DNA of 64,000 bases from Anoxybacter fermentans (GCF_003991135.1 NZ_CP016379.1:3162001-3226000), one strand, 5' to 3'; shown: positions 24,905 to 45,108, numbered from the stretch's first letter. The notes: generated by a model from the sequence alone, not told the origin. Translations and numbers: made by a program.

Positions 24905-24992
24905 GCCCGAAGGGCATTTCGTTCTTTATAAAAGGAAAAAGTGAATTTATAAAGAAAAAGTATAAGTATGAGCAATTGAGGAGGAGATGCAG

Positions 24993-25957: not shown

Positions 25958-26043
25958 GTGGGAATTTTAAAAAAATTTTATCATTGAAAAGAAGGAATCT
26001 ATTAATTTATGTCTAAATATATAAATATAAGTATATCAAAAAC

Positions 26044-26057
26044 CCAAAACGTTTTGG
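26044..26057. promoter_or_regulatory. LacI-family operator upstream of the regulator gene
   Basis: CCAAAACGTTTTGG is a perfect 14-bp palindrome with the central CG typical of LacI/CcpA-family operators. It lies 50 bp before the lacI-like start codon, suggesting autoregulation. An identical site lies upstream of the binding-protein gene. Confidence 0.85.
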
Positions 26058-26107
26058 AATATTAAATATTAAAATTTTTATAAGTTTTATATAAAGAGGT
26101 TGGGCGA

Positions 26108-27124: not shown

Positions 27125-27175
27125 TAAAAAATTAAAAGAAAGGAGAGTGGTTATAAAATATTTTTTTATTTTTTT

Positions 27176-27189
27176 CCAAAACGTTTTGG
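27176..27189. promoter_or_regulatory. LacI-family operator upstream of the sugar-binding protein gene
   Basis: A second perfect CCAAAACGTTTTGG palindrome, 39 bp before the ATG of the binding protein. Its identity with the site at 26044 makes a regulon of at least these two units likely. Confidence 0.87.
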
Positions 27190-27227
27190 ATAAAAATTAT
27201 TAATAAAAGAGGAGGAGGAAATTAAAA

Positions 27228-28481: not shown

Positions 28482-28494
28482 GTTAGGGTGATTA

Positions 28495-28532
28495 TTAACA
28501 TTTGGCCGGAATTAATTCCGGCCAAATGTTAA
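28495..28532 (+). promoter_or_regulatory. Perfect hairpin between binding-protein and permease genes
   Basis: A 38-bp uninterrupted palindrome (arms TTAACATTTGGCCGGAATT) followed by TGTTTG. Such structures commonly make binding-protein mRNA more abundant than permease mRNA by partial termination or 3' protection. Confidence 0.75.
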
Positions 28533-28558
28533 TTTGTTTGATTTTAGGAGGTGTGAAT

Positions 28559-29668
28559 GTGAAAAAAAGACTATCAACTTTAAATGAAAAGGTTGCACCT
28601 TACATTCTCTTAGCTCCATTTCTGTTTGTATTGATAGTTTTTTTTGGTTATGCTTTTGTCAGAGTTTTATATTTTAGTTTTACTGACTATGACCTTTTTT
28701 CATCACCTAAATGGGTCTGGTTTAAAAATTATATAAATCTTTTTCAAGAAATTCAATTTGGGCGGGCATTAAAAAATTCAATAACTTTTGCAATTATTGT
28801 TACTACATGTCAAACTTTTATTGCATTGGTACTTGCAGTAGTATTAAATCAACAAATCAAAGGAATTAAGTTTTTCCGGGCGGCATATTATATGCCCAGT
28901 GTTACATCCAGTGTAGTTATTACTCTTATTTTTATGTGGATATTTCAGAAGAGGGGTTTAATGAATTATTTATTGACACAAGTTGTTAAGGCAAGTCGAA
29001 TTTTACTTGTTTTTTTTCTACTTGCTGTTATTTTTCATATTCTGTTAGTAATGTATGAGAAAATTCGGAAAAGACCAGTTTCAATATTTGAACCAGCTTT
29101 TATTGTATTGTCTCTTCTTTTGAGTGGGATTATAACATTTATTTTAATCAAAGTTGGAATTATTTCAACTCTGGAAAATGTTAAACCTGTACGAATGATC
29201 TGGCTTAATACCCGAAAAACCTGGCCAGATATAGCAGGACCTTTAGCATTTCCTATTCCTCTGGGAGCGATTATGATTCTCAATATCTGGACGACTGCCC
29301 CGACTTTTATGTTACTTTATCTGGCGGGACTCCAGGATATTCCAAAAGAACTTTATGAGGCAGCAGCAGTAGATGGAGCAACAAAATGGCATACCTTCTG
29401 GTATATTACTGTTCCGCAGCTTAAGCATATCACATTTCTGGTTGTGACAATGGGACTAATTGGTACTTTGCAGATGTTTGACCAGGTTGCTGTTATAGGA
29501 GATCAAGCACCTTTAGATTCAACTATTACACTGGCTTATTATATCTATAAAAATGTTTTACCCAGTTCAGCAATACCTAAGGTTGGGCTGGCCAGTGCAG
29601 CGGCTATTTTCCTTGCCGGTTTGACTTTCATTATTGTACTGATTCAGAAAAAATTTGTAAACAAGTAG
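28559..29668 (+). CDS. Sugar ABC transporter permease (MalF-type)
   Basis: The 369-residue permease has the usual first membrane segment (YILLAPFLFVLIVFFGYAF), a transmembrane core and an EAA loop EAAAVDGATKWHTFWYITVPQL (key part YEAAAVDGATKW). It is longer than the usual ~290 residues because of an insert (about 140-235) with two or more additional hydrophobic segments (ILLVFFLLAVIFHILLVM, AFIVLSLLLSGIITFILI) between conserved parts of the core. GTG 28559 follows AGGAGG by 7 nt. It pairs with the next permease. Confidence 0.88.
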   Translation: MKKRLSTLNEKVAPYILLAPFLFVLIVFFGYAFVRVLYFSFTDYDLFSSPKWVWFKNYINLFQEIQFGRALKNSITFAIIVTTCQTFIALVLAVVLNQQIKGIKFFRAAYYMPSVTSSVVITLIFMWIFQKRGLMNYLLTQVVKASRILLVFFLLAVIFHILLVMYEKIRKRPVSIFEPAFIVLSLLLSGIITFILIKVGIISTLENVKPVRMIWLNTRKTWPDIAGPLAFPIPLGAIMILNIWTTAPTFMLLYLAGLQDIPKELYEAAAVDGATKWHTFWYITVPQLKHITFLVVTMGLIGTLQMFDQVAVIGDQAPLDSTITLAYYIYKNVLPSSAIPKVGLASAAAIFLAGLTFIIVLIQKKFVNK

Positions 29669-29683
29669 GATGGGGGGAATGTG

Positions 29684-31075
29684 ATGGGGAGTAAAACTGC
29701 TTATAGTTCAAAGACGATGACTAATATTTATATGATAAGGCGGCGAAGATGGGCCAATGTAGGGGCAGTTTATCTTTTGCTTTTGATCTTTTCTATAGGA
29801 TTTATGGGACCATTTTTATTTGCTGCCCTTTCCAGTCTTAAAGATGACCCTTTAGAATGGCCGCCCAGAATTACAGTTAATCAGCTAAAGCTTTCGAACT
29901 GGATTGCTGCTTATAAGTTGGGGAAAGCCGGAGGGGGTGGAGGCTTTTTTGGGGCTTTTGCTCCAGGTGCAGTTGTTCCTTTTGAGGTAACTTATAAGGT
30001 GGCACCAGGTAAAGAACCTGTTGTTCCTGAAGTAGTCATTCCGCGACGGATTCCGGGAAGTGCTGCGGCTGCATTGCTGTTAAAAGAATTTGCTGCTGAT
30101 TATGCAGAAGTAAGTGAGATTAAAGAAGTTGAGCGAGAGGTTTTAGAAGATGGATCAACTCTGGTCACTTATCGATTTGAAATTCGTCATACAGGAGATA
30201 TTGTTATTGATAGATTACCTCTAGATATAACTGTTCCTTTCAAACAGATTTTTGTAAAGGGTACACTAGATCCAAATCGAATTGAGCGGTTAGGACGGGT
30301 GCAAAGTTGGGATAATATAACTTCAGGAGTAATTCCTTATATTTTCCATAATTATCATAGGGTATTTAGTGAGAATTATAGCCGGAGTACAGGAAAAAAT
30401 CTTTTTATGTCCTGGATCTTTAACTCATTTTATTTAGCCTTTGTCCGGGTAATAACAACATTATTATTTGCTTCAATGGCAGGATATGCTCTGGCCCGTC
30501 TTAAATTTGCTGGTAAAAATACAATTTTTGTCTTTATGCTTTTTTCTATGATGATTCCTGGTCAGGTAACCTTTATTTCCAATTATCTGGTCTTGAGGGA
30601 TGGAATATTTGGAATCTCAAAACTTTTTGGTATGGATAGTTTATTAAATACTTATACAGGTTTGATTATTTCAGGGTTGGTAGGAGCCAGTGCAGTTTTT
30701 ATTATGAAACAGTTCTTTGAAGGACTACCAGTTAGCTTAGAAGAATCAGCAAGAATTGATGGTGCAAATACCTATCAAATTTTCTTTAAAATAATGCTGC
30801 CCCTGGCAAAACCGGCTTTAGGAGCATTAACTATTTTGACATTTCAAGGAGTATGGAATGAATTTTTCTGGCCATTAGTAGTACTAACTTCACCTCAAGA
30901 TAAGTTTACCTTGACTTTAGGACTTTTAAATTTCCGACAGACATATGCAGTGGCCTTTGATTGGGGACCAATGCTTGCTGGAGCAATTATTTCTGCTCTG
31001 CCAATAATTATTCTCTTTATAGTATTCCAGAAGTATTTTATAGAGGGAATCAGCTTTACTGGAATCAAGGGATAA
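29684..31075 (+). CDS. Sugar ABC transporter permease (MalG-type) with a large extracytoplasmic insert
   Basis: The 463-residue permease has TM1 (VYLLLLIFSIGFMGPFLFA), and the last five TMs with EAA loop EESARIDGANTYQIFFKIMLPL (key part SARIDGANTYQIFF) as in MalG-type permeases. Normal members have ~280 residues; this one carries some 180 extra residues between TM1 and TM2. The insert has a glycine-rich start (GKAGGGGGFFGAFAPGA) and a beta-rich body (VTYKVAPGKEPVVPEVV, TLVTYRFEIRHTGDIVIDRL; key part VTYRFEIRHTG). It may contact the binding protein, as the P2 loop of MalF does (inference). ATG 29684 or GTG 29681 can start it. Confidence 0.87.
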   Translation: MGSKTAYSSKTMTNIYMIRRRRWANVGAVYLLLLIFSIGFMGPFLFAALSSLKDDPLEWPPRITVNQLKLSNWIAAYKLGKAGGGGGFFGAFAPGAVVPFEVTYKVAPGKEPVVPEVVIPRRIPGSAAAALLLKEFAADYAEVSEIKEVEREVLEDGSTLVTYRFEIRHTGDIVIDRLPLDITVPFKQIFVKGTLDPNRIERLGRVQSWDNITSGVIPYIFHNYHRVFSENYSRSTGKNLFMSWIFNSFYLAFVRVITTLLFASMAGYALARLKFAGKNTIFVFMLFSMMIPGQVTFISNYLVLRDGIFGISKLFGMDSLLNTYTGLIISGLVGASAVFIMKQFFEGLPVSLEESARIDGANTYQIFFKIMLPLAKPALGALTILTFQGVWNEFFWPLVVLTSPQDKFTLTLGLLNFRQTYAVAFDWGPMLAGAIISALPIIILFIVFQKYFIEGISFTGIKG

Positions 31076-31100
31076 AGTATTATTTGGAGGAGGTTTTATC

Positions 31101-33443
31101 ATGGCGATTAAGTATAATCACGGAAAAGATGAATATCATAACTGGTTAGTTACTGAAACAAATTTTGATCCTGAATATTTAAGAAAAATTGAAACTATAT
31201 TTACTTTAGGAAATGGTTATATGGGTGTAAGGGCTGCTACAGAAGAACATTATATTGGTGAAAGTAGGGGTTGTTATATTGCTGGTTTATTTGATGAGTT
31301 TCCTGGTGAGGTTACAGAGCTAGCCAATATTCCTGACTGGTTAAATGTTGAAATAATATTGGCTGGGGAGAGGTTTGACTTAACTCAAGGTAAAGTTTTA
31401 GCATATCAGCGAATACTCAACTTAAAAGATGGTCAATTAATCAGGGATGTGGAATGGCAGAGCCCTAAAGGAAAGAGAAGTAGATTAATATTTAAAAGGT
31501 TTGTTTCATTGGATAATATACATGTGGCAGGTATGCAGATTAAGATAATCCCGCTAAATTATTCAGGCAAAGTCGAGATACAGTCGGGTTTAAATGGACA
31601 GGTGACCAATAGTGGTGTACAGCATTTTATTGAAGGAGATAAAAGAGTTTTTTCAGAAGGAAATATGTACATCACATGTCAGACTCAGGAGTCTAATATC
31701 ATCATGGCTTTGGCTGTGCACCATAGGTTTTTTCTAGAAAATAAAGAGCTTGAACTTGAAAAGAGATTTAAAACTGACCGACGTCAGTTATTTTTAACCA
31801 GTGAATATAGTGTTGAAGAAGAAAATGAATTTGTGGTGGAGAAATTTGTTGCTATCTATACCGGTAGAGATTCTGAATTTTTGAATTTACAGGGGGATCA
31901 GCTAAAAAAAGAGGTTGTTGATAGAGCCCTTAAGGATGTTACAAATGCTGCACAGTTAGGGTATGATGAGCTTTTTAATCGTCACAGAAATTGTTGGCAT
32001 AAATTGTGGAATCAGATGGATATTAAAATTGATGGGCCAGATTTTGATCAATTGGCAATAAGGTTTGCTCAGTTCCATTTGTATCAGATGACACCTGTTC
32101 ATGATAGCAGGCTCAGTGTTGCTGCTAAGGGTTTATCAGGTGAAGGATATAAAGGGCATGTTTTCTGGGATACAGAAATATTTATTCTACCATTTTTTAT
32201 CTATACATTCCCTCAAATTGCTAGAAATCTGCTTTTTTATCGTTATCATACTCTGAATGGAGCGCGGAAGAAAGCCTGTGAGTCCGGATATAAGGGAGCT
32301 ATGTATGCCTGGGAAAGTGCTATTACCGGTGAAGAGACCACACCTAAGTGGGGTGGGCTGGATCTTAAAACCGGTGAACAAATTCGTATCTGGTGTGGAG
32401 AGATAGAACAGCATATTACCTGTGATGTTGCTTATGCTATCTGGCATTATTTGCAGGTTACAAATGACTATGACTTTATGTTCAATTACGGAGCCGAAAT
32501 ATTCATGGAAACTGCCCGTTTCTGGGCCAGCCGGGTCGAATATAATGAAGAACGTGATCAGTATGAAATCAATGATGTGATTGGCCCTGATGAATATAGT
32601 GAACATGTAAATAATAATGCTTATACCAATTATATGGTTAAATGGCACTTAAATAAAGCAATTGAGATCGCCAATTGGTTAAAGAAGGATAAACCAGAGG
32701 TATGGAGAGAGATATCTAAAAAAATAAATATTTCTGATGATGAATTAAAAGATTGGCAGATGAAAGCTGAGAAGATTTACGTAAGCCATGATGAAGAAAG
32801 CGGATTGATTGAGCAATTTGATGGATTTATGGAGAAAAAAGAGATAGATATAACTCCTTTTAAAGGTAAGGTAGGAGCTATTGCACAACACCTAAGCTGG
32901 GAAGAAATTAAAGAATCTCAGGTTTTGAAACAGGCGGATGTAGTAATGTTATTATATCTGTTAGGGAATCAATTTACTCAAAAAGAGAAAAAAGTTAATT
33001 ACGAGTTTTATGAACCCAAAACTCTGCACGATTCTTCATTAAGCCCCAGTATCCATGCAATTTTGGCAGCAGATATAGGTGACATTAAACAGGCATATAA
33101 GTATTTTGAAAGAGCCAGTCGGATTGATTTAGGAGAAAATCCTAAAAGTAGTGATGCCGGTTTACATGCTGCTTCTTTAGGTGGTATCTGGCAGGCTGTT
33201 GTAAACGGTTTTGGCGGAGTAAGAGTAATTGATGGGGAGTTAAATATAAATCCGCGGCTTCCAGAAAAATGGGAAATGATAAAATTCCCTCTCACCTGGG
33301 CTGGGAAGAAATATGAGGTTGAAGTAAGTAAACGGCATATAAAAATTAAGAGTTTAGATCCAGGTAGTAACTCTTTAAAATTAAAAATTAATGGTCAGCA
33401 GTATTTATTAGGAGCTAATAGTGAACTTGGGATTAATTTTTAG
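31101..33443 (+). CDS. Glycoside hydrolase family 65 phosphorylase
   Basis: The 780-residue enzyme belongs to GH65, which phosphorolyse alpha-linked glucose disaccharides to beta-glucose 1-phosphate plus sugar. Visible are the N-terminal beta-sandwich start (FTLGNGYMGVRAA), the substrate segment GHVFWDTEIFILPFFIYTFP (key part FWDTEIF), the catalytic acid region IGPDEYSEHVNNNAYTNYM (the Glu in GPDEY), and the phosphate-binding region around SLSPSIHAILAADIGD and DAGLHAASLGGIWQA. The disaccharide (maltose, kojibiose, nigerose or trehalose) cannot be decided. As the last gene of the LacI-controlled operon it would handle the sugar brought in by the ABC importer. SD GGAGGAGG is strong. Confidence 0.92.
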   Translation: MAIKYNHGKDEYHNWLVTETNFDPEYLRKIETIFTLGNGYMGVRAATEEHYIGESRGCYIAGLFDEFPGEVTELANIPDWLNVEIILAGERFDLTQGKVLAYQRILNLKDGQLIRDVEWQSPKGKRSRLIFKRFVSLDNIHVAGMQIKIIPLNYSGKVEIQSGLNGQVTNSGVQHFIEGDKRVFSEGNMYITCQTQESNIIMALAVHHRFFLENKELELEKRFKTDRRQLFLTSEYSVEEENEFVVEKFVAIYTGRDSEFLNLQGDQLKKEVVDRALKDVTNAAQLGYDELFNRHRNCWHKLWNQMDIKIDGPDFDQLAIRFAQFHLYQMTPVHDSRLSVAAKGLSGEGYKGHVFWDTEIFILPFFIYTFPQIARNLLFYRYHTLNGARKKACESGYKGAMYAWESAITGEETTPKWGGLDLKTGEQIRIWCGEIEQHITCDVAYAIWHYLQVTNDYDFMFNYGAEIFMETARFWASRVEYNEERDQYEINDVIGPDEYSEHVNNNAYTNYMVKWHLNKAIEIANWLKKDKPEVWREISKKINISDDELKDWQMKAEKIYVSHDEESGLIEQFDGFMEKKEIDITPFKGKVGAIAQHLSWEEIKESQVLKQADVVMLLYLLGNQFTQKEKKVNYEFYEPKTLHDSSLSPSIHAILAADIGDIKQAYKYFERASRIDLGENPKSSDAGLHAASLGGIWQAVVNGFGGVRVIDGELNINPRLPEKWEMIKFPLTWAGKKYEVEVSKRHIKIKSLDPGSNSLKLKINGQQYLLGANSELGINF

Positions 33444-33473
33444 ACTTTATAAGAGTAAAGATATTATGATTAA

Positions 33474-33589
33474 ACTGCACAAAGCTAATTTTAAGCGGTA
33501 TTGAAGTTTTTTGCTAAACCATGTAGTTGCCTTATATCATTGGATGGTTCGAAAAATTTTTTTGAAGTGAAAAATTAGCTTTGTGCAGT
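33474..33589. repeat. Family 1 repeat, copy f, joined to an IS110 remnant
   Basis: 116 bp, ends ACTGCACAAAGCTAATTTT and AAAATTAGCTTTGTGCAGT. Both ends carry the same GCAC/GTGC variant, so the ends have changed in step. Its right end breaks the reading frame of the IS110-type transposase next to it. Confidence 0.9.
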
Positions 33590-33898
33590 AAAATCATCAA
33601 TGTGTTTAAGTTGAACAAATAAAATCATCTTTTGATGGTGTCCAATAAGTTCTTTTAATGCTTTTTCCAAAAGAGATATTTTATTTCGTAATTTACCTTT
33701 TGCTAATTGTGCAATAATTTTTGGATCAGGCTTATCACTATTGGTAAGTTGTTTAAGCATTTTACGTCCGGATTTGTTCAAAATATCATTAGCGGCAGAA
33801 GAATGTTTGATATTAGCACCTTCTAAAATTTTTTGTAGACAGTTAACCTTTCTAGAACGTTCATCAATTAAACTGCGACGATAGCGTCGATTAATCGC
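33575..33898 (-). pseudogene. IS110-family transposase remnant (C-terminal part)
   Basis: Reading leftward, the open stretch encodes RRYRRSLIDERSRKVNCLQK, ILEGANIKHSSAANDI, SGRKMLKQL and KLRNKISLLEKALK, the typical C-terminal part of IS110/IS1111 transposases (Tnp_20 domain). The usual HIDDL...continuation is cut after HIDD, where the family 1 repeat begins. The N-terminal half is missing and a stop codon lies at 33899. It is not functional. Confidence 0.85.
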
Positions 33899-33959
33899 TT
33901 ATTTTGCCTTAAATGGACTGTAAATCTTTTGATACTACTATCAAATATAAAAATGTTAT

Positions 33960-35352
33960 GGCTCTCCGTCAAATGTTGTGAAAGATAAGTTGGCTCCGTT
34001 GAATTGATTGGTGAATTGGTTTTGGAATAAACATTTAAATTTAATAACTTAACATTACATTAAATACTCTTCTCCTTAGATTCATAACATTTGGAACACC
34101 ACATCCAATCCTTTTGATCAATTTAATCTTGTTATTGATACCCTCAGCAAAGCCATTGGTTATCTTATTCTTAAAATAATTTAGTATTTTTTCTTTCTAT
34201 CTTTGTATTATCTTTTTTACTTGGTGAAAAGGTATCAGCTTGCTTTTTATTATTTCTTTATACCACCTTTTTAGAGCTCTGGTGGCTTCTTTTACATCAT
34301 CTAGCTGCAATAAGTCTTTGAATTCCTCTTTTAGTTCCCAGGCTTTTTCTAAAGCTGGGCTGAGTTCAAATAATTCGATGAGCTTTTCATGTTCTTCATC
34401 TGTCAGTTCTTCAGCTCGTTTTTGGAGTAATAAACGACTTTGAAAAAACTTTCTTCTCTGATGATTATTTAGTGTTTGTTGAACTTGTTTTCTAACTTCG
34501 TCAAGGGCTTTGTTCATTAAAGTTACAAGGTGAAATTTATCTATAACAATTTTTTCATGAGTAAATGCTGCATCTGCTACTGCTTTGAACGGACACCATA
34601 TATCCATAGAGATCGATTGAATCTGTCGTCTTTGCTCATCTTCCTAACAATTAAAGTAGTTAATTAAATCATCCTTTTTGTGAGTAGGTAAAATGTCAAT
34701 TAACTCCCGATTAATTGGATCTGTAATGCTAACTCCATATTTATGGCGTTTTAAAACTGCAAATTCATCGATATTGATGGCTTTTAATTGACTAAGTTTT
34801 GAAACTTGTTGTTTAATGAGAGGGTCAACTACTTTTTTAACTGCATTATTAACAGCTGTATAACTTAACCCGTTTTCTCTAGCAACTTTAGAATAATCCT
34901 TGCTGACAGTTTCTTTAGCAAGATATTTATCAAAGCGTTTGGTTTTACGGGCATATTTATCAATACTTTCATATTTTTCAGGGATACCCCTTTTATGACA
35001 ATAAGGACAACGATATCTTTTTTTAGAGGTCTAATGATTACTAGTTTACCTCTTATGGGGATGTCTCTAATATTTTGCCATTTTGTATCATAGATTTTAT
35101 TAGTGATATTACCACACTGAGGACACACAATGTGATTTTTCTTTGCTTCAGCAATAAAAATATATCTGTCCTCCGTTGAAATAATTTCAGTTGCAATAAT
35201 GTCTGGCAAATCAAGAAATTTTATAATATTATTATCTTGCATTTGCTGGGCTCCTTTCTTTGGTTTTTAGTTCGCAACTAATTAATTCAACGGAGCCAGC
35301 AAATGCCTTTTTATTTTTATAATTTTTTCTTCATAACATTAATTATAGAGCC
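33960..35352 (-). mobile_element. Decayed ISL3-family insertion sequence, copy 1
   Basis: The ends GGCTCTCCGTCAAATGTT (left) and the complement of GGCTCTATAATTAATGTT (right) are imperfect inverted repeats of the ISL3 type (GGCTCT...). The element is 1393 bp. It contains a broken transposase gene on the minus strand. A second copy in the opposite orientation lies at 54666-56035. No clear 8-bp target duplication remains. Confidence 0.85.
34041..35242 (-). pseudogene. ISL3-family transposase, broken by a frameshift and stops
   Basis: The N-terminus (IKFLDLPDIIATEII ... HIVCPQCGNITNKIYDTKWQ, key part VCPQCGNIT) is the ISL3 zinc-binding domain. The next zinc-ribbon segment is frameshifted near 35030. 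Then follow a helix-turn-helix region and the DDE catalytic part (NIDEFAVLKRHKYG, SMDIWCPFKAVADAAF, VIDKFHLVTLMNKALDEVRK; key part VIDKFHLVTLMNKALDEV). Stops interrupt the frame at about 34640 and 34195. A full-length protein would be about 400 residues. It is inactive as it stands. Confidence 0.87.
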
Positions 35353-35580
35353 GAAAATTTTTATTTTTGAATAATAACCTCATATATTCTTTCATTAATT
35401 TTCCTCCCTCTTTAAATTACGTTCCGTCAAATTTTCTCTCTTTTCCAAGGGACAAAAGCTTGGTTTTTCCTTGTAGGGTCGGGATTTTCCTAAAAAAGAA
35501 GGAATCCCTCCCCCTGGAGTAGTAGGTAGTAGTTGACCAAAACACAACTCACTACACCCAGAATGGAGGGATTCGTAAGT

Positions 35581-36028
35581 TATGATTCGTCAACCACTAC
35601 TCAATATTCCTCTTAAATTCTTTATTAAATTTTCTCTTTCACCTCTTTTTAGTTCTCTCACAATATTTCCGTGTTGATTTTAAACCATCTAATCAGATCG
35701 ATGACAACTACTCTAAACTAAACAACCTCGATGATCCTTTACCTCTTTTAAAACCTGTTTACAAAGATTATCAAACATTACTCGTTGAAGCTGAAAAAAA
35801 TGGACAACCAATCAAACCTATGCGCAGAATTGAATCTTTAAATGTTGATGTCGATGAATGCCCACACTGTGGAGCCCCTGAAGATTATCTCAGACTCTTT
35901 GGACGTGATCCAGATGGATATCAACTTCAGTGTAAAGTTTGTAAATATCAATGGGCTCCAAAAAAGCCTCATCAACCTAAAACACATCCTACATACTATT
36001 GCCCATTTTGTGGTTATGCTCGGGCTAA
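35581..36028 (+). pseudogene. 5' half of a zinc-ribbon transposase, cut by the IS3 element
   Basis: A start MIRQPLLNIPLKFF is followed, after a frameshift near 35660, by FRVDFKPSNQIDDNYSKL and two CxxC pairs (ECPHCGAPEDYLRLFGRD; CKVCKYQWAPKK; YCPFCGYARANP). Such zinc ribbons open the transposases of several clostridial insertion sequences; the exact family is not certain. The frame stops where the IS3 element begins (36029). The 180 bp before it hold an inverted pair GAATCCCTCC / GGAGGGATTC, perhaps the end of this element. Confidence 0.65.
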
Positions 36029-36045
36029 CCCCTTAATATTGGAGA

Positions 36046-36955
36046 TTATGCTCTAAAAGATTCCATTTTCACAGAATTATTTTTAAATGCTTCATAAAAC
36101 TTTGTCGGAGGCATATTTCGGATACTTCCATGCCTTCTTCTCTCATTATAATACTTCATATAATTACTTACTATGTAATATACTTCCACAAAACTTTTAA
36201 ACTTATTATGACTGTAATATTCTTCTTCCAATATTGAAAGAAATGCCTCTATATGTGCATTCATATTCGGGGTTTTTACAGGAATTCTTTCATGTTCTAT
36301 ACCTAATTCCTTACATAAGCTATTAAATTCATTCGAAATAAACTGAGGACCATTATCTGTTCTTACTTTTGGCATGTCCATTTCTTTTACTATACACCTT
36401 TTTCTTAATGCATTTTTTAAAACTCTACAAACGTCTTTTGCTTTACAAGATAATTCTAAATGATAATCTATTATTGAACGGTCGAAAACGTCTATTAGTG
36501 ATAGTTGAAAGAAAAATTGATCAGTTCTATAAATATATCCATATTTTATATCCATTTCCCATAGTTGATTTGGTGAATGTATCTTTTTTCTTTTTGCTAA
36601 CCGACGAGGATACCTTTGTTTAATTTTCCTCTGTGGCCTTAAGATATTCAATTCTTTGCATAGCCTATAAATCTTTTTATTAATTTGAAGATCATAGTCT
36701 TCCTGAAGGCATACCGTCAGTTTATGATATCCATAAGGAAACCCATCTCCAGCAACCAACTCACATACCCATTCCTTAATTTGCTCATCAGAGATTTTTA
36801 TACCTTTACTGGTAAAGGTATAACCTGTGCTATGTTCTCATCATATGTAGATGAAGATAAGCTGACAAAGCCTAAAACCAAGCTGATTTTATATCCATAT
36901 TCTATCCATTTTTTTGCTATGGCGACTTTGTCGCTATTGAGGGTTTACTTTATTT
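36046..36955 (-). pseudogene. IS3-family OrfB (integrase) with a frameshift
   Basis: The C-terminal 237 codons encode the rve-type catalytic core with the three acidic residues in WEMDIKYGY, RTDNGPQF and NAHIEAFLSILEEE. The N-terminal piece (SDKVAIAKKWIEYGYKISL, VLGFVSLSSSTYDEN) is in another frame and meets the core frame near 36830, so the gene is broken. Programmed frameshifting between orfA and orfB is normal in IS3; this second break is not. Confidence 0.85.
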
Positions 36956-37237
36956 CTAAGAATTGCTAGCTCTAATTCTCTTTTCAGCAAGAAGTCTTTT
37001 AAGCATATCATTCTCAGTATTTACTTTTTCTAATCTTTTTAAAACTTCCAGATACTGTTTTTTCTTTGTTTTTAGAAAAGATTCTGCATAACCTTTTTGA
37101 CGACTGGATTTAATCCAACTATATATAGTTTGCTTAGAAATTTCATGGCGACGTGTAACCAATTCAATATTACTAATCAATTGACATTCTTCTATTGTTT
37201 GTTGTTTGAATTCATCAGAATATTTTTTACGTTTCAT
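36956..37237 (-). CDS. IS3-family OrfA (helix-turn-helix protein)
   Basis: The 93-residue product starts MKRKKYSDEFKQQTI and has the helix-turn-helix ELVTRRHEISKQTIYSWI, then a leucine-rich coiled coil (LKRLEKVNTENDMLKRLLAEK), as in OrfA of IS3 elements. The ATG at 37237 has SD GGAGGTA; a longer upstream frame lacks one. The natural continuation (ELAILRNKV) is out of frame at the end, hinting at a small lesion. Confidence 0.82.
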   Translation of the reverse strand: MKRKKYSDEFKQQTIEECQLISNIELVTRRHEISKQTIYSWIKSSRQKGYAESFLKTKKKQYLEVLKRLEKVNTENDMLKRLLAEKRIRASNS

Positions 37238-37310
37238 GAATAATACCTCCTCTATCATTATTATATCAATTATATCATTTTCATACTTTATCTCCAAACC
37301 TATTAGGGGG

Positions 37311-37597
37311 CTATATAGAAAAATTTGCCTGGTAATGAACAACCAACTATAATGTGGTTCGAAGGAGAACTTTTTTTAGAATTATACAGAAAAGAAGCTT
37401 TATCAAATGTTGTTCTGAACTAAATGGTAAAATATAAAGCAGGTATTATGGCAAATGGTTTATATTGGTCTTTTTGAATTTAATAATAGATACCGAAAAA
37501 AATTTTCTGATAATTAAAAAATTTTAAGCAAATATGGAGAAATTATTATTTATACGTAGAATATATATATTAACAAATAGAGGAAAGGAGGGGAAGA
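37311..37597. other. Spacer between the IS3 element and the precursor gene
   Basis: About 290 bp. A short open stretch at about 37331-37423 ends with MWFEGELFLELYRKEALSNV and a stop; it has no recognisable family and looks like the tail of a lost gene. The rest is A+T-rich and must contain the promoter of the RiPP operon, but no convincing -35/-10 pair could be placed. Confidence 0.4.
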
Positions 37598-37720
37598 ATG
37601 AATACACCTGCTTATAAGGGGAAAAAAATAGCTGGTTGTGTTGGCTGTGCAGTAGTAGGTTTAAATCCAGGTTTGGTTTCCTTTCCATGTATACCATGGT
37701 ATGTAGCTGCTGCTGTATGA
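37598..37720 (+). CDS. SkfA-like sactipeptide (sporulation killing factor-type) precursor
   Basis: This 40-residue peptide is too short for usual gene calling. It reads MNTPAYKGKK, then IAGCVGCAVVGLNPG, then LVSFPCIPWYVAAAV. SD AAAGGAGGGG stands 4 nt before the ATG. Cysteines are at 14, 17 and 31. B. subtilis SkfA ends KAAGCMGC...VCALPHP..., so the AGCxGC start, the third Cys about 13 residues on, and the following aliphatic-Pro pair all match. The leader would be about 13 residues, much shorter than the 29 of SkfA. By analogy Cys17 would form the thioether to an alpha carbon and Cys14-Cys31 a disulfide. No Met stands at the SkfA acceptor position, so the acceptor residue must differ. The SkfB-like enzyme directly downstream supports the call. 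Confidence 0.85.
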   Translation: MNTPAYKGKKIAGCVGCAVVGLNPGLVSFPCIPWYVAAAV

Positions 37721-37729
37721 TTTAATCTT

Positions 37730-37755
37730 AAGGGGCTATTATCTAATAGCCCCTT
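37730..37755 (+). promoter_or_regulatory. Hairpin between precursor and maturase genes
   Basis: AAGGGGCTATT and AATAGCCCCTT form a perfect 11-bp stem with an ATCT loop, followed by A9 rather than T. It is not a standard terminator. It may be a processing or stabilising site that leaves more precursor mRNA than maturase mRNA, as is common in RiPP operons. Confidence 0.7.
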
Positions 37756-37780
37756 AAAAAAAAATTTGGAGGTTAATATT

Positions 37781-39079
37781 ATGTATCCATTGTTTGTAGA
37801 ACCTTATGTTTTGGTCAAACAGTATGGAGATTCTATCATATATAAATGGAATCAAACTTCAATGGAGTATAATTTAGTAAATAGAACAGGTGCAGAGATT
37901 TTAGAGTTATGTGATGAGAAAAAGACTATAGAAAAGATTAGTGAAGAGATGGCAATTCGGTATTCTGAAGATTATAATAGAGCAAAAGTATTGACAAGTA
38001 ATTTTATCTACGAGAGTATTAAAGAGGGATACATAGTAATGAATGATAAACTAGTAGTTAACTTAAAGCAACGAGGGAAAATTTATGGAGATTTTGATCG
38101 TGTAACTCCAATGGCTATAACTATCGAATTAACAAGACAATGTCCATTAATTTGTAGACATTGTTATAATTCAGCTGGTTATAGTATGAAAGATGAGATG
38201 AATTTTGAAGAAGTTTTAATTGTTTTAAAGAAACTTCAAGAAATGGGAGCCAATAAGCTTTTTATAACTGGTGGAGAACCAACTATTCGGCAAGATTTTA
38301 TTAATATATTAGATGAAATTTCTAAAAGATTTTTTGTAGCAACAGTAGCTACCAGTGGGTATATGTTTACGCCTGAATTTGTAGAAAAAATAAAAAACTA
38401 CAAAAATATTGCATGGCAGATTAGTATTGATGGAATGGAAAAAACTCACAATATAATCCGTGGTCGAAGTGATTCTTTTGAGCGTGCGAATTTTGCGATA
38501 AAATCTTTAAAGAAATATAAGTTACCTGTTGTAATTTCTTTCACATTAAATCCATTGAATAGAAATGAAATGGAATCTGTAATTCAATATGGTAAAAAGA
38601 TGGGTGTTGTTCAAGTTCTTATAGGTCGTACAATGAAAATGGGAAGGGCTATTAATGAAAATTGGTCATATAATTTTAATGAATTTAAAGAAATAGAGGA
38701 GGAAATAAATAGATTAAAAAGTATTTATGAAACAGAAAATTTTTTTATTGGGAAAAATGAAGAAGGAGTTCTCTTAGATAAGGTAAAAGAACAGCAGAAT
38801 TGTGGTGCTGGATATATTAGTATAAATATATTGCCAAATGGAGATGTTACTCCTTGTACGGCTTTTAATTATTTATTAGGGAATCTGGTTACTGATGAAA
38901 TTGATGATATTTTTGCTTCTAAAAAAGTATTAATGTTAAAAAATTTAAAATCTCCAACTAAAAATCTTTGTGGTTCTTGTGAGTTACTTGATACTTGTGA
39001 CGGATGTCATGGCATGGCTTATCAGATAAAAAAAGAGGATTGTATCTGGAAGAAAAAATTTGAAGAATCAGTAAAATAG
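37781..39079 (+). CDS. SkfB-like radical SAM/SPASM sactionine maturase
   Basis: The 432-residue protein has an N-terminal PqqD-like (RRE) region of about 85 residues for leader binding, then a radical SAM domain with C121, C125 and C128 in CPLICRHCYN. The GGEP region is at 163-166 (FITGGEPTIR). The segments QISIDGMEKTHNIIRGR (213-229) and GRTMKMGRA closely match SkfB (QISIDGMDNTHDQLRGR; GKTLSVGRA). C-terminal cysteines at 341, 359, 397, 400, 406, 409 and 421 should hold auxiliary iron-sulfur cluster(s) of the SPASM type. It would install the thioether in the peptide encoded 60 nt upstream. ATG 37781 is used, with SD GGAGG; the TTG at 37766 overlaps that SD. Confidence 0.93.
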   Translation: MYPLFVEPYVLVKQYGDSIIYKWNQTSMEYNLVNRTGAEILELCDEKKTIEKISEEMAIRYSEDYNRAKVLTSNFIYESIKEGYIVMNDKLVVNLKQRGKIYGDFDRVTPMAITIELTRQCPLICRHCYNSAGYSMKDEMNFEEVLIVLKKLQEMGANKLFITGGEPTIRQDFINILDEISKRFFVATVATSGYMFTPEFVEKIKNYKNIAWQISIDGMEKTHNIIRGRSDSFERANFAIKSLKKYKLPVVISFTLNPLNRNEMESVIQYGKKMGVVQVLIGRTMKMGRAINENWSYNFNEFKEIEEEINRLKSIYETENFFIGKNEEGVLLDKVKEQQNCGAGYISINILPNGDVTPCTAFNYLLGNLVTDEIDDIFASKKVLMLKNLKSPTKNLCGSCELLDTCDGCHGMAYQIKKEDCIWKKKFEESVK

Positions 39080-39153
39080 GTAATTAAAGCAGGTAATAAA
39101 TTTTTTCATGTGTATCTGTCTTACATAAAACAATAATATTTGGAGGAATCAAG

Positions 39154-39891
39154 GTGAGAAGAAATATTTTGCAAGTTAATAATTTAACCAAAATTTATGA
39201 TACCAAAAAAGTTCTTAAAGAAGTTTCTTTTGAAGTCAAATGTGGAGAAATTGTGGGCTTGATTGGACCAAATGGTGCTGGCAAGACTACAATTATACAG
39301 AGTATTTTAGGACTTATTGAACGAGATCAGGGTGACATTTATTACAATGGTCAGATATTAAAAAAACAACAGGAGATTGCTACACATATATCTTATATTC
39401 CTGAACAACCGGTCTACTATGAAGATCTAACTGTAGAAGAACATTTACAATTTATTGCTATGTTATTTAAAATTCCGCAAAATGAATATCAAAAACGTAA
39501 AGAGTTTATTGTTGACTATTTAAATTTAAAGGAGCATTTAAAAAAATTTCCTGATCAATTATCAAAGGGGACTAAACAGAAGTTTATGATCAGTTGTGGG
39601 TTTATTCGAGAATTTGATTTAATGGTGGCTGATGAACCTTTTTCTGGTCTGGATCCAGCAGCACTAAAAAATCTAAAAGACCTTTTTAGAGAATATAAAA
39701 GAAGGAATAAATCTATAATTGTCTCAACTCATCTTCTGGATTTAGCACAAACTTTTTGTGATAGATATATATTTTTAAATAAGGGAGAAATTATTGTTGT
39801 TGGAAGCCAAAAAGAAATCAGTGAAAAAATTAATTTTAAAAATAAAAATCTATCACTGGAAGAAATCTTTTTAAAGCTCATGAATAAATAA
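39154..39891 (+). CDS. ABC transporter ATPase (SkfE-like exporter/immunity component)
   Basis: The 245-residue ATPase has Walker A GPNGAGKTT, a Q-loop (YIPEQPVYYEDL), a signature region LSKGTKQKF, Walker B LMVADEP and the switch histidine in STHLLDL. In the SKF system the matching protein SkfE with SkfF exports the peptide and protects the producer. The next gene encodes the membrane part. The start is GTG after SD GGAGG. A signature of LSKGT instead of LSGGQ is common in ABC-2-type exporters. Confidence 0.9.
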   Translation: MRRNILQVNNLTKIYDTKKVLKEVSFEVKCGEIVGLIGPNGAGKTTIIQSILGLIERDQGDIYYNGQILKKQQEIATHISYIPEQPVYYEDLTVEEHLQFIAMLFKIPQNEYQKRKEFIVDYLNLKEHLKKFPDQLSKGTKQKFMISCGFIREFDLMVADEPFSGLDPAALKNLKDLFREYKRRNKSIIVSTHLLDLAQTFCDRYIFLNKGEIIVVGSQKEISEKINFKNKNLSLEEIFLKLMNK

Positions 39892-39902
39892 GGGAGTTGA
39901 TT

Positions 39903-41222
39903 TTGTTGCAGATGTTTACATTACTATTAAAAAACAAAATTAGGTTTGTTTTGCGTCACCGAAAAAAAGTAGTACTGGGAATATTTGTTCTATTTCTGGT
40001 TCTTTCGATTGTTCCTGAAGCAATGAATTTAATAGAAGATATAGAAATTTCAACAAAATTTTTCCAGATATTATTTAATGTTTTTTTTCTAATTTTTGCT
40101 TTTAAAAAGATATTTATTGATAACCATCCACCAATTTATTTCTCAGTCCCCAGCACTCATTTCATAATGACTTCTCCAGTGAATATAAAAGTAATTGTGG
40201 GTATTAAATTATTATTATCTTATGTACCTATCATAATACTTTCATTTATTATTTTTTCTTTTTTTCGTTTTTATGAATTGACAAAAGTAAATAGTTATAT
40301 TTTTTCATTAATTTTAATTTTTTTGACAAATATATCCTGGTTAAAATTTAATCTTGAAAAAAAGTCAATAAAGTTTATGTACCAGGCTCTACTATTTGTT
40401 TTGATCATAATATTTTTTCCAACAAAAGATGTTTATATTATGTTTTGGATGATTGCTTCATCAGTAAGTTTTCTATTATCAATTGTTATTGCTGATTATA
40501 TACAATGGCCTAAATTTAGAGAATACTGTAAATTTATTTATTTAAGTAAAAAATATTGGCTTGAAAGTAATTGGGTTGGATTACAGACATTGATGTATGA
40601 GAAGAGAAAGAATTCTCAAAAAAGAACCTTTTTACATTCATTATATTTGATAGGTTGGCGGTCCATTATATTTAAAGATTTAATAATCTATTCTAGATTT
40701 TCATTTAGAGTCTGGTTAATGCTTTTAACCCAGGTTGTTTTTGCTATATATTTAATGAAATCTAGTGAAAAAAGTTTATTTGTGATTGGTTGTGGGATTA
40801 TTTTATTAGGAATTACTGTCAATTTTGCAAATTTATTTAATAAGACTATTCAAAAACGAAAAGAAGGTTTTTTAATTCCTTTAACTCCTGAAGAATTGTT
40901 AATTGGTTCTCTTACTCTTCCGGTTATAATTTCTGTTTTGTTATTAACTATTATGGTGATAGTACTAAACCCCATCCAGATTATTATTAGAATTATACTG
41001 GTAAATATTACAATATCTATATTATTACCATTACTTGCTGTTGTTAGAAGTTATAGTAATATGGGGATTATGTCATTTAAATTCATATTTGGTTCATGTT
41101 TATTTATAGGATATTTTTTTGTAGCTGTTCATGCCTCACTCTTATACTTATGTTTATTTATTTTTCCAATATTCTTATATAATTATATATTGGTTAAAGG
41201 AGTGATAAAAAATTATGATTAA
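39903..41222 (+). CDS. ABC-2-type exporter permease (SkfF-like position)
   Basis: The product of about 439 residues is a polytopic membrane protein with roughly 10 hydrophobic segments (for example VVLGIFVLFLVLSIVPEAM, FFQILFNVFFLIFAFKKI, ALLFVLIIIFFP, LFIFPIFLYNYILV). It has no clear family motif, but its size and place match SkfF (about 447 residues). TTG 39903 gives the best spacing from AAGGGAG; ATG 39912 is the alternative. Its 3' end overlaps the TldD-like gene by 8 nt, so the two are coupled. With the ATPase it would export the mature peptide and give self-protection. Confidence 0.8.
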   Translation: MLQMFTLLLKNKIRFVLRHRKKVVLGIFVLFLVLSIVPEAMNLIEDIEISTKFFQILFNVFFLIFAFKKIFIDNHPPIYFSVPSTHFIMTSPVNIKVIVGIKLLLSYVPIIILSFIIFSFFRFYELTKVNSYIFSLILIFLTNISWLKFNLEKKSIKFMYQALLFVLIIIFFPTKDVYIMFWMIASSVSFLLSIVIADYIQWPKFREYCKFIYLSKKYWLESNWVGLQTLMYEKRKNSQKRTFLHSLYLIGWRSIIFKDLIIYSRFSFRVWLMLLTQVVFAIYLMKSSEKSLFVIGCGIILLGITVNFANLFNKTIQKRKEGFLIPLTPEELLIGSLTLPVIISVLLLTIMVIVLNPIQIIIRIILVNITISILLPLLAVVRSYSNMGIMSFKFIFGSCLFIGYFFVAVHASLLYLCLFIFPIFLYNYILVKGVIKNYD

Positions 41223-42618
41223 AGATAATTTTTCTATAGAGAAAATAGATGTTGTAGAGCTTGCTGAGTTACAAAAGAGAATAATACCCCTAACAGATTA
41301 TATAGATTTTTATATTGAAGAAGTTGTTGAAATGAGTTGGTTTTTAGGATTGACAGAAAGGGTTGGGCCTCTTTTTTCAACTAATCGTGGTGCAGGTTTA
41401 CGTATAATTCAAAAAAATAATCGGATGTATTTATGTAGGACTTTAGCTGAATATAAAGATATTTATGAACTATTTGAAATGGCTTTAAAAAAATTATCGA
41501 CAAATATAGAATATGGAATTAAATATCAAACGACTAATAATTATTTCCAATATCAAAATCAATCTCTTCATCAAAAATTTAATTTACCTTATGAAGAAAT
41601 AGATTTCGTTTTTAATGAGTTGGAGTATTTTGCACGGGAAAATTTGAATTTATATAACCTTTCATGTCATATTTCGGGTTGTTTAAAAAAGGTAATTATA
41701 TTAGATCATGAAGGTAAATCTATTGAGTTGGCTGAAAACAAATTGAAAGTTAAGCTTAATATTATGTTTAATCTAAATGGAGAGATGATTACTAAGACGA
41801 AAAAATGTTTTTCTAAAGGTGATAACTTTAATTTGAAGGAATTAATTAAAAAAAACGGATTTGATTTAGTGAAAGAAGCAAAAAATTGTGTACGTTTAAA
41901 AACTGTAAAACCAGATAAAATGGATCTTGTTCTAGCTCCAGGGGCAGGGGGAATTCTCATTCATGAAGCATGTGGGCATGCCTTAGAGGCGGATGAAATT
42001 CTTGAAAAGAATAGTGTTTTCTCTTATAGGTTAGGAAAAAAAATAGCCCCTGATTATATTACAATTTGTGACAGAGGTCATATTGAAAGTGATTGGGTTT
42101 ATGAACCTTACGATTCTGAGGGAACGAAATCAAACTCTGTATATCTTATTAAAGATGGTGTGATTAGTGGGGTTATGACTGATTTAAGGACAGCCAAGGA
42201 ATTAAATTTTAAACCTACTGGAAACGGGCGTAGAGAGTCTTTTCAATTTCAACCAATATGTCGGATGAGAAATACATATTTAGAGCCAAGAGAATATTCG
42301 CCTGAAGAAATTATTAAAAGTACGAAGAAAGGTATTTATGCTACCGAATTTTCAGGTGGGGAAGTCAATACCCAGACAGGAGATTTTATTTTTGGAGTTA
42401 GTAGTGGATATTTAATTGAAAATGGGGAAATTACAGATGCTATTAAACCTTTTTTGTATGTTGGAAATACATTAGATGTATTATCTAGAATTGATATGGT
42501 GGGAAATGATTTAAAATTTGAAATTGGAGATTGTGGAAAAAGTGGACAGATGGTGGATGTATCTTATGGTCAACCTACGTTACGCATTTCTTCACAAAAA
42601 GTAGGTGGTCTACGATGA
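41215..42618 (+). CDS. TldD-like zinc protease subunit in a RiPP operon
   Basis: The 467-residue protein is a member of the TldD/PmbA family (PF01523). It has the zinc-binding HEXXXH in LIHEACGHALEADEI (H250, E251, H255), the following CDRGHIESDWVYEPYDSEGT region (key part YDSEGT), SGGEVNTQTGDFIF, and the Cys of DCGKSGQMVDVSYGQPTLRI (third zinc ligand, family knowledge; key part CGKSGQM). TldD with TldE forms a heterodimer that degrades unfolded peptides and removes the leader of microcin B17. In this operon the substrate would be the modified SkfA-like peptide. It overlaps the permease gene and, by 4 nt (ATGA), the TldE gene. Confidence 0.93.
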   Translation: MIKDNFSIEKIDVVELAELQKRIIPLTDYIDFYIEEVVEMSWFLGLTERVGPLFSTNRGAGLRIIQKNNRMYLCRTLAEYKDIYELFEMALKKLSTNIEYGIKYQTTNNYFQYQNQSLHQKFNLPYEEIDFVFNELEYFARENLNLYNLSCHISGCLKKVIILDHEGKSIELAENKLKVKLNIMFNLNGEMITKTKKCFSKGDNFNLKELIKKNGFDLVKEAKNCVRLKTVKPDKMDLVLAPGAGGILIHEACGHALEADEILEKNSVFSYRLGKKIAPDYITICDRGHIESDWVYEPYDSEGTKSNSVYLIKDGVISGVMTDLRTAKELNFKPTGNGRRESFQFQPICRMRNTYLEPREYSPEEIIKSTKKGIYATEFSGGEVNTQTGDFIFGVSSGYLIENGEITDAIKPFLYVGNTLDVLSRIDMVGNDLKFEIGDCGKSGQMVDVSYGQPTLRISSQKVGGLR

Positions 42619-43949
42619 AAGAAAAAATATATAAATTAGAACAAACTATAAAAAAAGTATTAAAGCATGAGGATTGTGCAGAAATATATTTTTCACAGAA
42701 AGATAAGCATTGTTATGAGATAAATGATAATTTGAAGAAAAATTATTCTTTATTTTCAGATATGGGTATTTCAGCAAGAGTATTTAAAAAAGGAAAGGTC
42801 GGTTTTTCTTTCCGTCCTGGTATTAGTGAGGATGCAATTTTTGGAGCTCTTCAGGATGCTCAACAAAATTTAAAATTTGCTCCCGAAGAATCTTATATGC
42901 CTTTTCCTTGTATAAAACCCAAGGAAAATTTTGATTTTAATTTTGAGGATAAGATTGATGTATTTAATCTTTTGACAGAAGAACTGATTCAAAAAATGAA
43001 TGAAGAACTTAAAAGAGTAGGTTTAAGTTTAAAAACAATATATTTTTATAGTGAAATTGAACAATTTTTACTTATAAATACTGCTCAAGTCCAAGGTGGA
43101 GGGAATGTAAATTTATATTCATTAGGATTCAACTTTAGAATAAAGAATAAGAGCATTGATGAATCTTTTTTTATAACACGTTTCTTTTCTGATTTTCGTG
43201 ATTTTTTTAATGTAAAAGATGTTATACAGCAAGCAATTAAAATTGCAGAAGTTAAAAAAAGTAATCCATTACAGCAGAAAGTAATTGATTCCCCAATTTT
43301 ATTAACACCTAATGCAGTTTCCGTCTTGATATATGTATTTTTATCTTTACTTACAAGTGAATCTATTTTTCATAAGAGGAGTTTTATTTCAGATTTAGAT
43401 AAAAAAATATTTTTTGGTAACCAGTTAACGATTATTGAAAACGCAAGGAATAATAAAATTTGTAATGCAAATATTGATCGAGAGGGGTCAGTAAGAAAAG
43501 AGGTTAAGATAATTGAAAAGGGAAATTTATGTAATATTATATCTGATATAAAATACGGCTCTAAAATTGGAGTTCAAAGTACTTCCTCGGCATGGCGTCA
43601 AAATTATCAACAGATGCCAATAGTAAAAGCAACATCTGTTACTGTGGAGTCTGGAACTTCTTTGATGGAAGAGATTATCTGTAAAAATAGTGAAATCTTT
43701 ATTATTGATGATTTAATAGGGATTGCTGCTGGATTGAACTCTACTACAGGTGATTTCCAAGTAACTTCTGAAGGGTATTTAATGAGTGATAATAAGATTA
43801 AAGGGAGGGCTAGAGTTTTTTTTCAAAATAATTTGATATCATTGTTTAATAATATTATTGAGATTACAAAGGAACAAGAGTATGGGATTGATGGCTCTAT
43901 TTATGTTCCTGGTTTTGTAATTGGAAATACAAAGCTGAGTGTAATTTAA
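42615..43949 (+). CDS. TldE/PmbA-like partner subunit
   Basis: The 444-residue protein belongs to the same family but lacks HEXXXH, as TldE/PmbA subunits do. Recognisable family parts are DMGISARVFKKGKVGFSF, SGTSLMEEI, and the C-terminal GIAAGLNSTTGDFQVTSEGYL (key part NSTTGDFQVTSEGYL). Its start ATG overlaps the TldD stop (ATGA); a longer frame from 42531 lies wholly inside tldD. It should form the heterodimer with the TldD-like subunit and help bind the substrate. It is the last gene of the operon; a decayed transposase starts 13 bp after its stop codon. Confidence 0.92.
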   Translation: MKEKIYKLEQTIKKVLKHEDCAEIYFSQKDKHCYEINDNLKKNYSLFSDMGISARVFKKGKVGFSFRPGISEDAIFGALQDAQQNLKFAPEESYMPFPCIKPKENFDFNFEDKIDVFNLLTEELIQKMNEELKRVGLSLKTIYFYSEIEQFLLINTAQVQGGGNVNLYSLGFNFRIKNKSIDESFFITRFFSDFRDFFNVKDVIQQAIKIAEVKKSNPLQQKVIDSPILLTPNAVSVLIYVFLSLLTSESIFHKRSFISDLDKKIFFGNQLTIIENARNNKICNANIDREGSVRKEVKIIEKGNLCNIISDIKYGSKIGVQSTSSAWRQNYQQMPIVKATSVTVESGTSLMEEIICKNSEIFIIDDLIGIAAGLNSTTGDFQVTSEGYLMSDNKIKGRARVFFQNNLISLFNNIIEITKEQEYGIDGSIYVPGFVIGNTKLSVI

Positions 43950-43961
43950 AAGTTTATGTGG

Positions 43962-44471
43962 CTATGCAGTTAACTCAGCATAGGTAATTGTAGAAGTAGA
44001 AGTGCATGCTACTAAAAGCCTGTCAAACAGCTAGTTCTGCATCCAGCGACGATTAAAACGATAACAGAATTCTTCTAAATAAGACTAAAGATGCTTTTTT
44101 CCTAATCCATAATAAGTACCTTCTATAAAAGCCTTAGCATTATCAATTACAGTATACAGCCATTTGAGAAAATGGGAATCCTCATGAGGATCATAGTGTT
44201 TAAACTCGTACTTAAACTTACCATCATTCCCAAGTTGTCTGTAGGAATGATAAGCATCACTGGATATCTTCGACTCAGCTTAAATGTTGCGGTAAGCAAA
44301 ATCTCCTAAAGTTGAAGCTTTAATATCAGATACAATTTCCATTTTCAAATACTTAGGGTGGCCTTCTTCATCAAGAGATATAGCACATATAACTTTAGAT
44401 TTTTCTGTTCTACGACCACGTTTACCGCCCCAGATGGGATTCCCAAAAAAAGTATCACAGGTTGTTGACAA
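43962..44471 (-). pseudogene. IS1595/ISXO2-like transposase remnant
   Basis: Read on the minus strand, it encodes DTFFGNPIWGGKRGRR, VICAISLDEEGHPKYLKM, SSDAYHSYRQLGND, HYDPHEDSHFLKWL and EEFCYRFNRRW, the DDE_Tnp_IS1595 pattern. In-frame stops occur near 44280, 44084 and 44034, and the N-terminus is missing. It marks the right border of the RiPP operon. Confidence 0.85.
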
Positions 44472-44533
44472 ACACTAGTTTTTCCATTGCAATTTATCTG
44501 GATTATTAAAATTAGATAGGCTAAACCTCTAAA

Positions 44534-44740
44534 TTAAGCAACTTTTCTAAAATTATCAGTTATAAAATCAGGTCCATTATTTCTTTTCCAGAGATAAAGG
44601 GCTATTTTTCTCATATTTTGGCATGACGAAGAGAGAAGACATTGTTCCCTTACTTTCTCTAGCCATCTCATCCGGCAAAATCTTAAACCATGGAGCTCTT
44701 TTGTATCTGCAAAACTTCGCTCAATGGTTTCTTTTCTTTT
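44534..44740 (-). pseudogene. IS1182-type transposase remnant (C-terminus)
   Basis: The minus strand encodes KRKETIERSFADTKELHGL, RFCRMRWLEKVREQCLLSS and CQNMRKIALYLWKR, the typical C-terminal end of IS1182/DDE_Tnp_1-type transposases. A stop precedes it and only 68 codons remain. It is too short to be active. Confidence 0.82.
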
Positions 44741-44769
44741 TTATACAACTTTTTCCCTTTTTCACTGAG

Positions 44770-44977
44770 ACTGCACAAAACTAATTTTGAGCGACATAGA
44801 AATTTTTCGTTAAACCATCTTAGTGAGATTTCAGTCGAAATAAGGCTTCATCACAGGATGTGATGAGCTAATCAAGGGTCAGGAGACCCATTGATTAGTG
44901 TGCCTTATTTCGACAGAAATCTAACTTTAGATGGTTCGAAAAATTTCTTTTGAAATGAAAAATTAGCTTTTTGCAGT
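44770..44977. repeat. Family 1 repeat, copy g
   Basis: 208 bp. The left end is ACTGCACAAAACTAATTTT, the right AAAATTAGCTTTTTGCAGT preceded by GAA. The long centre includes GGCTTCATCACAGGATG and CTAATCAAGGGTC ... GATTAGTGTGCC. It lies between the IS1182 remnant and the pst operon. Confidence 0.88.
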
Positions 44978-45057
44978 AAAATCAAAATATGAACTCTAAT
45001 TTTTTGATAATAAGCAGAGAGAGTATATTTCTTATTATACAAAAGACTTCTGAAAGG

Positions 45058-45098
45058 ATAAAGCTGGTTTCCGGTTAGGAGACCAGCTTTATTATTTT
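45058..45098 (+). terminator. Strong hairpin with T tract upstream of pstS
   Basis: ATAAAGCTGGTTTCC pairs with GGAGACCAGCTTTAT (one G-U), followed by TATTTTTA. No gene lies directly upstream, so it is either a leftover terminator or one that insulates pstS from read-through. Confidence 0.85.
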
Positions 45099-45108
45099 TA
45101 ACGTTTTT

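Follow-up and report, generated by a model that had tools for sequence, protein, structure and literature searches.

Leader removal in sactipeptide biosynthesis is poorly understood, and the locus described here raises the question of whether it could be carried out by TldD/TldE (TldD/E), a protease that matures microcin B17 and other peptides (PMC10885120, PMC5810440). In the window, by which we mean the whole 64,000-nucleotide stretch of Anoxybacter fermentans DNA that was analysed, a radical SAM peptide cluster ends with a tldD/tldE pair. Does this pair mature the product of the cluster, does it serve another purpose there, or did it merely come to rest behind the exporter?

Gene row and the TldD/TldE pair

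ORF and Pfam scans placed six plus-strand genes in a packed row from 37598 to 43949, encoding in order a precursor, a maturase, an ABC ATPase, a permease, TldD and TldE. The precursor gene (37598..37720, +), identified as an ORF with the ribosome-binding site AGGAGGGG and a homologue at locus L026 of another genome, specifies a 40-aa peptide with three Cys, MNTPAYKGKKIAG-CVGCAVVGLNPGLVSFPCIPWYVAAAV, laid out as MNTPAYKGKKIAG-CVGC-AVVGLNPGLVSFPCIPWYVAAAV, with an N-terminal segment of 13 residues ahead of the first Cys and 16 ahead of the second. Between this gene and the maturase gene, RNA folding gave a hairpin followed by an A-rich tract (37728..37757, +; -19.1 kcal/mol, z -3.1), which is possibly a partial terminator or an mRNA-stabilising stem. 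The maturase gene (37781..39079, +) encodes a radical SAM/SPASM peptide maturase with an N-terminal PqqD-like (RRE) domain (PF05402, PF04055 and PF13186), and it is followed by genes for an ABC transporter ATPase with a putative role in export or immunity (39154..39891, +; PF00005) and for a 441-aa ABC transporter permease (39897..41222, +). The permease was assigned from its position, has no Pfam family and showed no significant similarity to either SkfF or the L026 permease. The G+C content of the peptide cluster is 28%, against 34% in the window, and a promoter scan performed no better than on shuffled sequences. Judged by eye, two ORFs resembling an IS3-type transposase pair adjoin the cluster on the left (36046..37342, -), and short ORFs resembling transposase remnants lie to its right (44147..44671, -). 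ORF fragments similar to the left pair were also seen near the 2.29-Mb locus.

The row closes with the gene for the 467-aa metallopeptidase subunit TldD (41215..42618, +) and that for its non-catalytic, PmbA-type partner TldE (42615..43949, +), the latter 444 aa long with ATG 42615 as its start (the mechanically called ORF begins upstream, at TTG 42531). TldD scored 228 bits against PF19289 and matched the solved structure of E. coli TldD (5nj5, E 6e-55); TldE scored 122 bits against PF19289 and also matched PF01523. The HExxxH motif of TldD reads HEACGH (residues 250-255, at 41962-41979), and the position corresponding to the third zinc ligand of the E. coli enzyme (PMC5810440) is occupied by Cys440 in DCGK (42532-42534), while TldE has no HExxxH, as expected of that subunit. 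Although the Pfam scan did not detect PF01523 in the window TldD alone, profile comparison with a housekeeping TldD aligned nearly full length, indicating that the N-terminal domain is present. The C-terminal domains, the zinc site and the TldD N-terminal domain that characterise the M103 family (PF19289/PF01523) can all be recognised in the two sequences; a single-sequence structure prediction of TldD was unusable (mean pLDDT 30.5). As part of the explanation that we favour below, the pair is probably a TldD/TldE heterodimer of the MEROPS M103 type.

An AAAGGAG site precedes the tldD ATG at 41215; since the permease gene runs on to its stop codon at 41222, the two genes overlap by 8 bp, and the tldE ATG and the tldD stop overlap as ATGA. 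The preliminary description had claimed an intact TldD and TldE pair that closes the operon and is translationally coupled to the exporter, and both points were borne out: the two proteins are full-length with a complete zinc site, and the overlaps link permease to tldD and tldD to tldE. Scanning the gene row for ORFs and Pfam domains revealed neither a CPBP nor an M16 protease, so that TldD/E is the sole protease encoded in it.

The maturase, the precursor and their relatives

The maturase carries its radical SAM cysteines at positions 121, 125 and 128 and has seven C-terminal Cys with SPASM-like spacing, all of which are conserved in the relative from genome G391. Its best NCBIfam match was the SkfB model TIGR04403, at 157 bits about half of the cut-off of 300, and its best solved relative was SkfB (6efn, E 1.7e-37); the AlbA model scored 103 against a cut-off of 850. 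It resembles many SPASM families while falling far under the SkfB and AlbA cut-offs. Because it reaches only 157 of 300 and has a full SPASM Cys pattern rather than the twitch domain of SkfB (PMC8172795), the maturase is, on sequence comparison, a relative of SkfB that stands outside the SkfB family. Its earlier labelling as SkfB-type was accordingly right about kinship and too narrow about family. With the maturase below the curated TIGR04403 score and no SkfC-type CPBP gene in the operon, the cluster falls outside the SKF type, and with an AlbA score of 103 out of 850 and no M16 gene in the operon, it falls outside the subtilosin type as well. It does have the gene content of a sactipeptide locus, namely a radical SAM maturase with an RRE and an auxiliary-cluster domain beside a Cys-containing precursor.

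A clear homologue of the precursor was found in G391, a genome of another class (L026 10775-10903, -; MELPVFKGTQKAACAACTLPGLVLNPLMVSFPVCVPIQVAILT), with a BLASTP score of 35 bits that none of 5000 shuffles equalled, and an LNPxxVSFP region is common to the two peptides. Likeness to annotated SkfA was weak, restricted to KxAGCxGC and equalled by 33 of 5000 shuffles. The G391 cluster has the gene order of the window as far as the permease: after the precursor comes a maturase with 39% identity, then the ABC ATPase and the permease, and a hairpin with a z of -3.4 follows its precursor gene at the equivalent position. A homologous cluster is present at L057 in G443, which belongs to the genus of G391. 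The maturase gene of G443 (L057 8802-10080, +) is broken into several frames, and its precursor, ABC ATPase and permease genes remain.

No protease gene, and no TldD/E, was found in the G391 and G443 clusters, and the G391 genome contains no TldD/E anywhere. Because cluster and genome do without it in G391, TldD/E would be unnecessary for the chemistry of this precursor type, and it looks like an optional addition to this type of cluster. These findings qualify the proposal that TldD/E stands in place of the SKF or subtilosin protease: the pair is indeed the only protease in a cluster lacking CPBP and M16 enzymes, but homologous clusters exist without any protease.

Searches for further clusters used the maturase as query in 200 relatives, the SkfB family model in 399 genomes of the phylum, and a profile built from the two maturases in 37 genomes of the class of G391 plus two small classes of 10 and 4 genomes. 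They returned homologous clusters only in G391 and G443, both without TldD/E; as the maturase is rare, they have low power as a test of its co-occurrence with TldD/E. A third match to the SkfB model (G127, 115 bits) had no TldD/E beside it, and a scan of a genome contig collection gave one weak partial match. Viral contigs yielded nothing; plasmids yielded only distant radical SAM genes, one of them a true SKF cluster that we took as reference, and only distant TldD genes, the best at about 33% identity. Across the genomes searched, the single cluster combining this precursor type with TldD/E was that of the window.

Other TldD/E loci and the comparison with G001

The possibility that the window pair is the sole tldD/tldE of the genome was rejected, as seven further loci were found, making eight in total. 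The loci at 1.20, 1.23, 1.75 and 2.28 Mb have syntenic copies among similar neighbours in G001, the one relative available for a family-level comparison, and their distance to the nearest radical SAM gene is 11-46 kb. The other four, the window included, lie 0.5-2.7 kb from radical SAM genes and had no counterpart among the seven G001 TldD/E loci compared. About 10% of random stretches lie as near to a radical SAM gene, which gives P of about 0.005 for four of eight loci, a count for which three of seven is the fairer figure since the window locus was preselected. The three extra loci also carry B12-binding or SPASM radical SAM genes together with MFS or ABC transporters, and two of them have a short ORF with a strong ribosome-binding site just ahead of a radical SAM gene.

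In a tree, the TldDs of the four radical SAM-adjoining loci were set apart from housekeeping TldDs, weakly (74/89) and on long branches, so that the grouping may reflect long-branch attraction. When a profile of these cluster TldDs was run against the phylum, other TldDs scored far under the four. Comparison with the housekeeping tldD/tldE genes, which the preliminary description had called for, set the window pair apart, four other loci being syntenic in G001 and the window locus not. By these comparisons the window pair is a dedicated, non-housekeeping copy.

Several details of these loci were recorded along the way. Candidate precursor ORFs with strong ribosome-binding sites lie at L031 15971-16075 (-), L031 5833-5952 (-), L032 14404-14496 (-) and L114 4184-4267 (+). 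At the 1.787 Mb locus (G000), the TldE gene (L031 8121-9484, -) falls into two ORFs that are out of frame with each other, which is either real or an assembly error, and the adjoining TldD gene is intact; a gene for an Rce1-like (CPBP) protease (L031 12218-12856, -) is present too, so that both protease types occur together there. G001 itself holds at least seven TldD/E pairs (L050-L056), none in a radical SAM peptide locus, a copy number unusually high for a normally housekeeping pair.

In G001, the counterpart of the window hydrolase gene at 24987-25826 is followed directly by pstS (window 45196), and some 19 kb, the whole peptide cluster included, is missing. Besides the peptide cluster, the stretch absent from G001 (window 25900-45100) contains IS-like ORFs as well as transporter and phosphorylase-like genes. 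Given this direct succession of hydrolase gene and pstS, cluster and TldD/E are jointly absent from G001. The preliminary description had allowed that the pair could be a passenger if it were the only one in the genome and were found without the precursor in close relatives; instead, there are eight loci, and G001 lacks pair and cluster alike.

A maturation route, its alternatives and known systems

Building on gene content and order, the coupling, the intact zinc site, the dedicated copy and the joint absence from G001, all of which can be read directly from the DNA, we propose with a probability of roughly 0.6 that a dedicated TldD/TldE encoded in the cluster matures its product, the cluster being a radical SAM RiPP locus akin to those of SKF and subtilosin. 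In this scheme, the maturase would use its PqqD/RRE domain to bind the short N-terminal segment and would join a Cys of the CxxC motif by a thioether to a residue within the LNPxxVSFP region. The modified peptide would then enter the TldD/E channel N terminus first and be trimmed there up to the point where the ring can go no further, and export would fall to the ABC transporter. The suggested mixed maturation route for a sactipeptide thus holds as far as a specialised, coupled TldD/E within the cluster is concerned, while the thioether chemistry, the order of steps, the extent of trimming, the sactipeptide nature of the product and leader removal by TldD/E are the parts that we infer. A model of E. 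coli TldD/E sets the minimum that a substrate needs at 15 unfolded residues at its N terminus (PMC5810440). Under that geometry, canonical trimming would barely work with 13 residues before the first Cys, and few would be removable; as 13 and 16 residues precede the first and second Cys, either limited N-terminal trimming that keeps most of the 13 or a channel shorter than that of E. coli would be expected.

This poor fit of the 13-residue segment to the channel model also suits an enzyme that belongs to the operon without removing a leader, degrading unmodified or imported peptide as quality control or self-protection, or trimming the C terminus like BipI. Both ends of the substrate are cut by the biphenomycin protease BipI (PMC12707348), unfolded peptides, CcdA41 among them, are also degraded by E. 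coli TldD/E (PMC5810440), and the related G391 cluster must mature its product without TldD/E. We nevertheless consider such a role unlikely, given that known TldD/E heterodimers in RiPP pathways target the N terminus (PMC10885120) and that E. coli TldD/E leaves unmodified McbA undigested (PMC5810440). That IS-mediated shuffling placed a tldD/tldE copy behind the exporter with no specific role in the pathway is more improbable still: IS-like ORFs on both sides of the cluster, the absence of TldD/E from its relatives in G391 and G443 and the many copies in this lineage would all agree with a passenger, but the overlap with the permease gene and an active site kept intact within an IS-rich region argue for selection, and three further extra copies also sit in radical SAM loci.

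A different doubt concerns the peptide class. The product could be a radical SAM RiPP other than a sactipeptide, for example one whose thioether sits at a beta or gamma carbon, like those of ranthipeptides, or one with another crosslink, which would make the comparison with SKF and subtilosin an analogy only. The maturase scores far below the SkfB and AlbA cut-offs, as set out above, and the resemblance to SkfA is confined to KxAGCxGC; yet SkfB is both the best named family and the best solved structure, and the core begins with AGCxGC as in SkfA, so that we regard this departure as somewhat unlikely. It touches the chemistry and is compatible with a dedicated TldD/TldE as the protease. As a tentative extension of the favoured explanation, which we rate as possible but on the doubtful side, the lineage might have duplicated TldD/TldE as a general cluster-encoded module, with four non-housekeeping pairs serving four radical SAM loci, one of them the first of the SKF/subtilosin type to be matured by TldD/E, with a channel adapted to very short leaders.

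Our literature search, with most subscription papers outside its reach, found no report linking TldD/E to a sactipeptide cluster. Among the papers covered, TldD and sactipeptides were mentioned together only in a preprint on biphenomycin-like peptides and its published version, and PmbA and sactipeptides not at all; a genome survey of anaerobes lists putative sactipeptide loci with TldD unmentioned (PMC4289311). TldD/E may be a dedicated maturation tool so far untied to the SKF/subtilosin-like class, where it would supply a defined two-gene protease for leader removal. The protease family is widespread yet enigmatic, and its presence at four radical SAM loci of a single genome would broaden its role.

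Among known systems, SKF clusters encode a protease that is of the CPBP type or putative (PMC8172795). The SKF operon (skfABCEFGH) shares with the window the order of precursor, radical SAM maturase and ABC exporter, the AGCxGC start of the core and a maturase nearest to SkfB. In the SKF reference cluster, however, a CPBP protease gene lies between the maturase and ABC genes, whereas the window has none there and ends with TldD/TldE; the window maturase has seven SPASM Cys as opposed to the twitch domain of SkfB, the CxxC motif comes after only 13 residues as against far more in SkfA, and the permease is not detectably related to SkfF. The subtilosin A operon (sboA-alb) combines a very short leader, the full-SPASM maturase AlbA and the two-subunit metallopeptidase AlbE/AlbF. 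All three traits recur in the window, but AlbE/AlbF is of the M16 type and TldD/E of the M103 type, with HExxxH and a Cys ligand.

Microcin B17 and E. coli TldD/E provide the same heterodimeric protease family and active site, but there TldD/E is encoded outside the cluster and acts on an azole peptide whose leader is 26 residues long (PMC5810440, PMC10885120). Biphenomycin clusters likewise encode a TldD-type protease within a radical SAM-containing RiPP cluster, where a lone TldD (BipI/PbsP), encoded alongside a B12 radical SAM enzyme, does the trimming (PMC12707348, PMC12257519); they differ in having no TldE and in using MNIO and B12 radical SAM chemistry without a thioether. Set against these systems, the window is best read as a new SKF/subtilosin-like variant in which TldD/E would act as a dedicated trimming protease. 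Its closest counterparts are the G391 and G443 clusters (L026, L057), alike in precursor, 39% identical maturase, ABC ATPase, permease and intergenic hairpin and different in the absence of TldD/TldE, so that a single precursor and maturase type can be compared in two natural settings, with TldD/E in the window and lacking it in G391.
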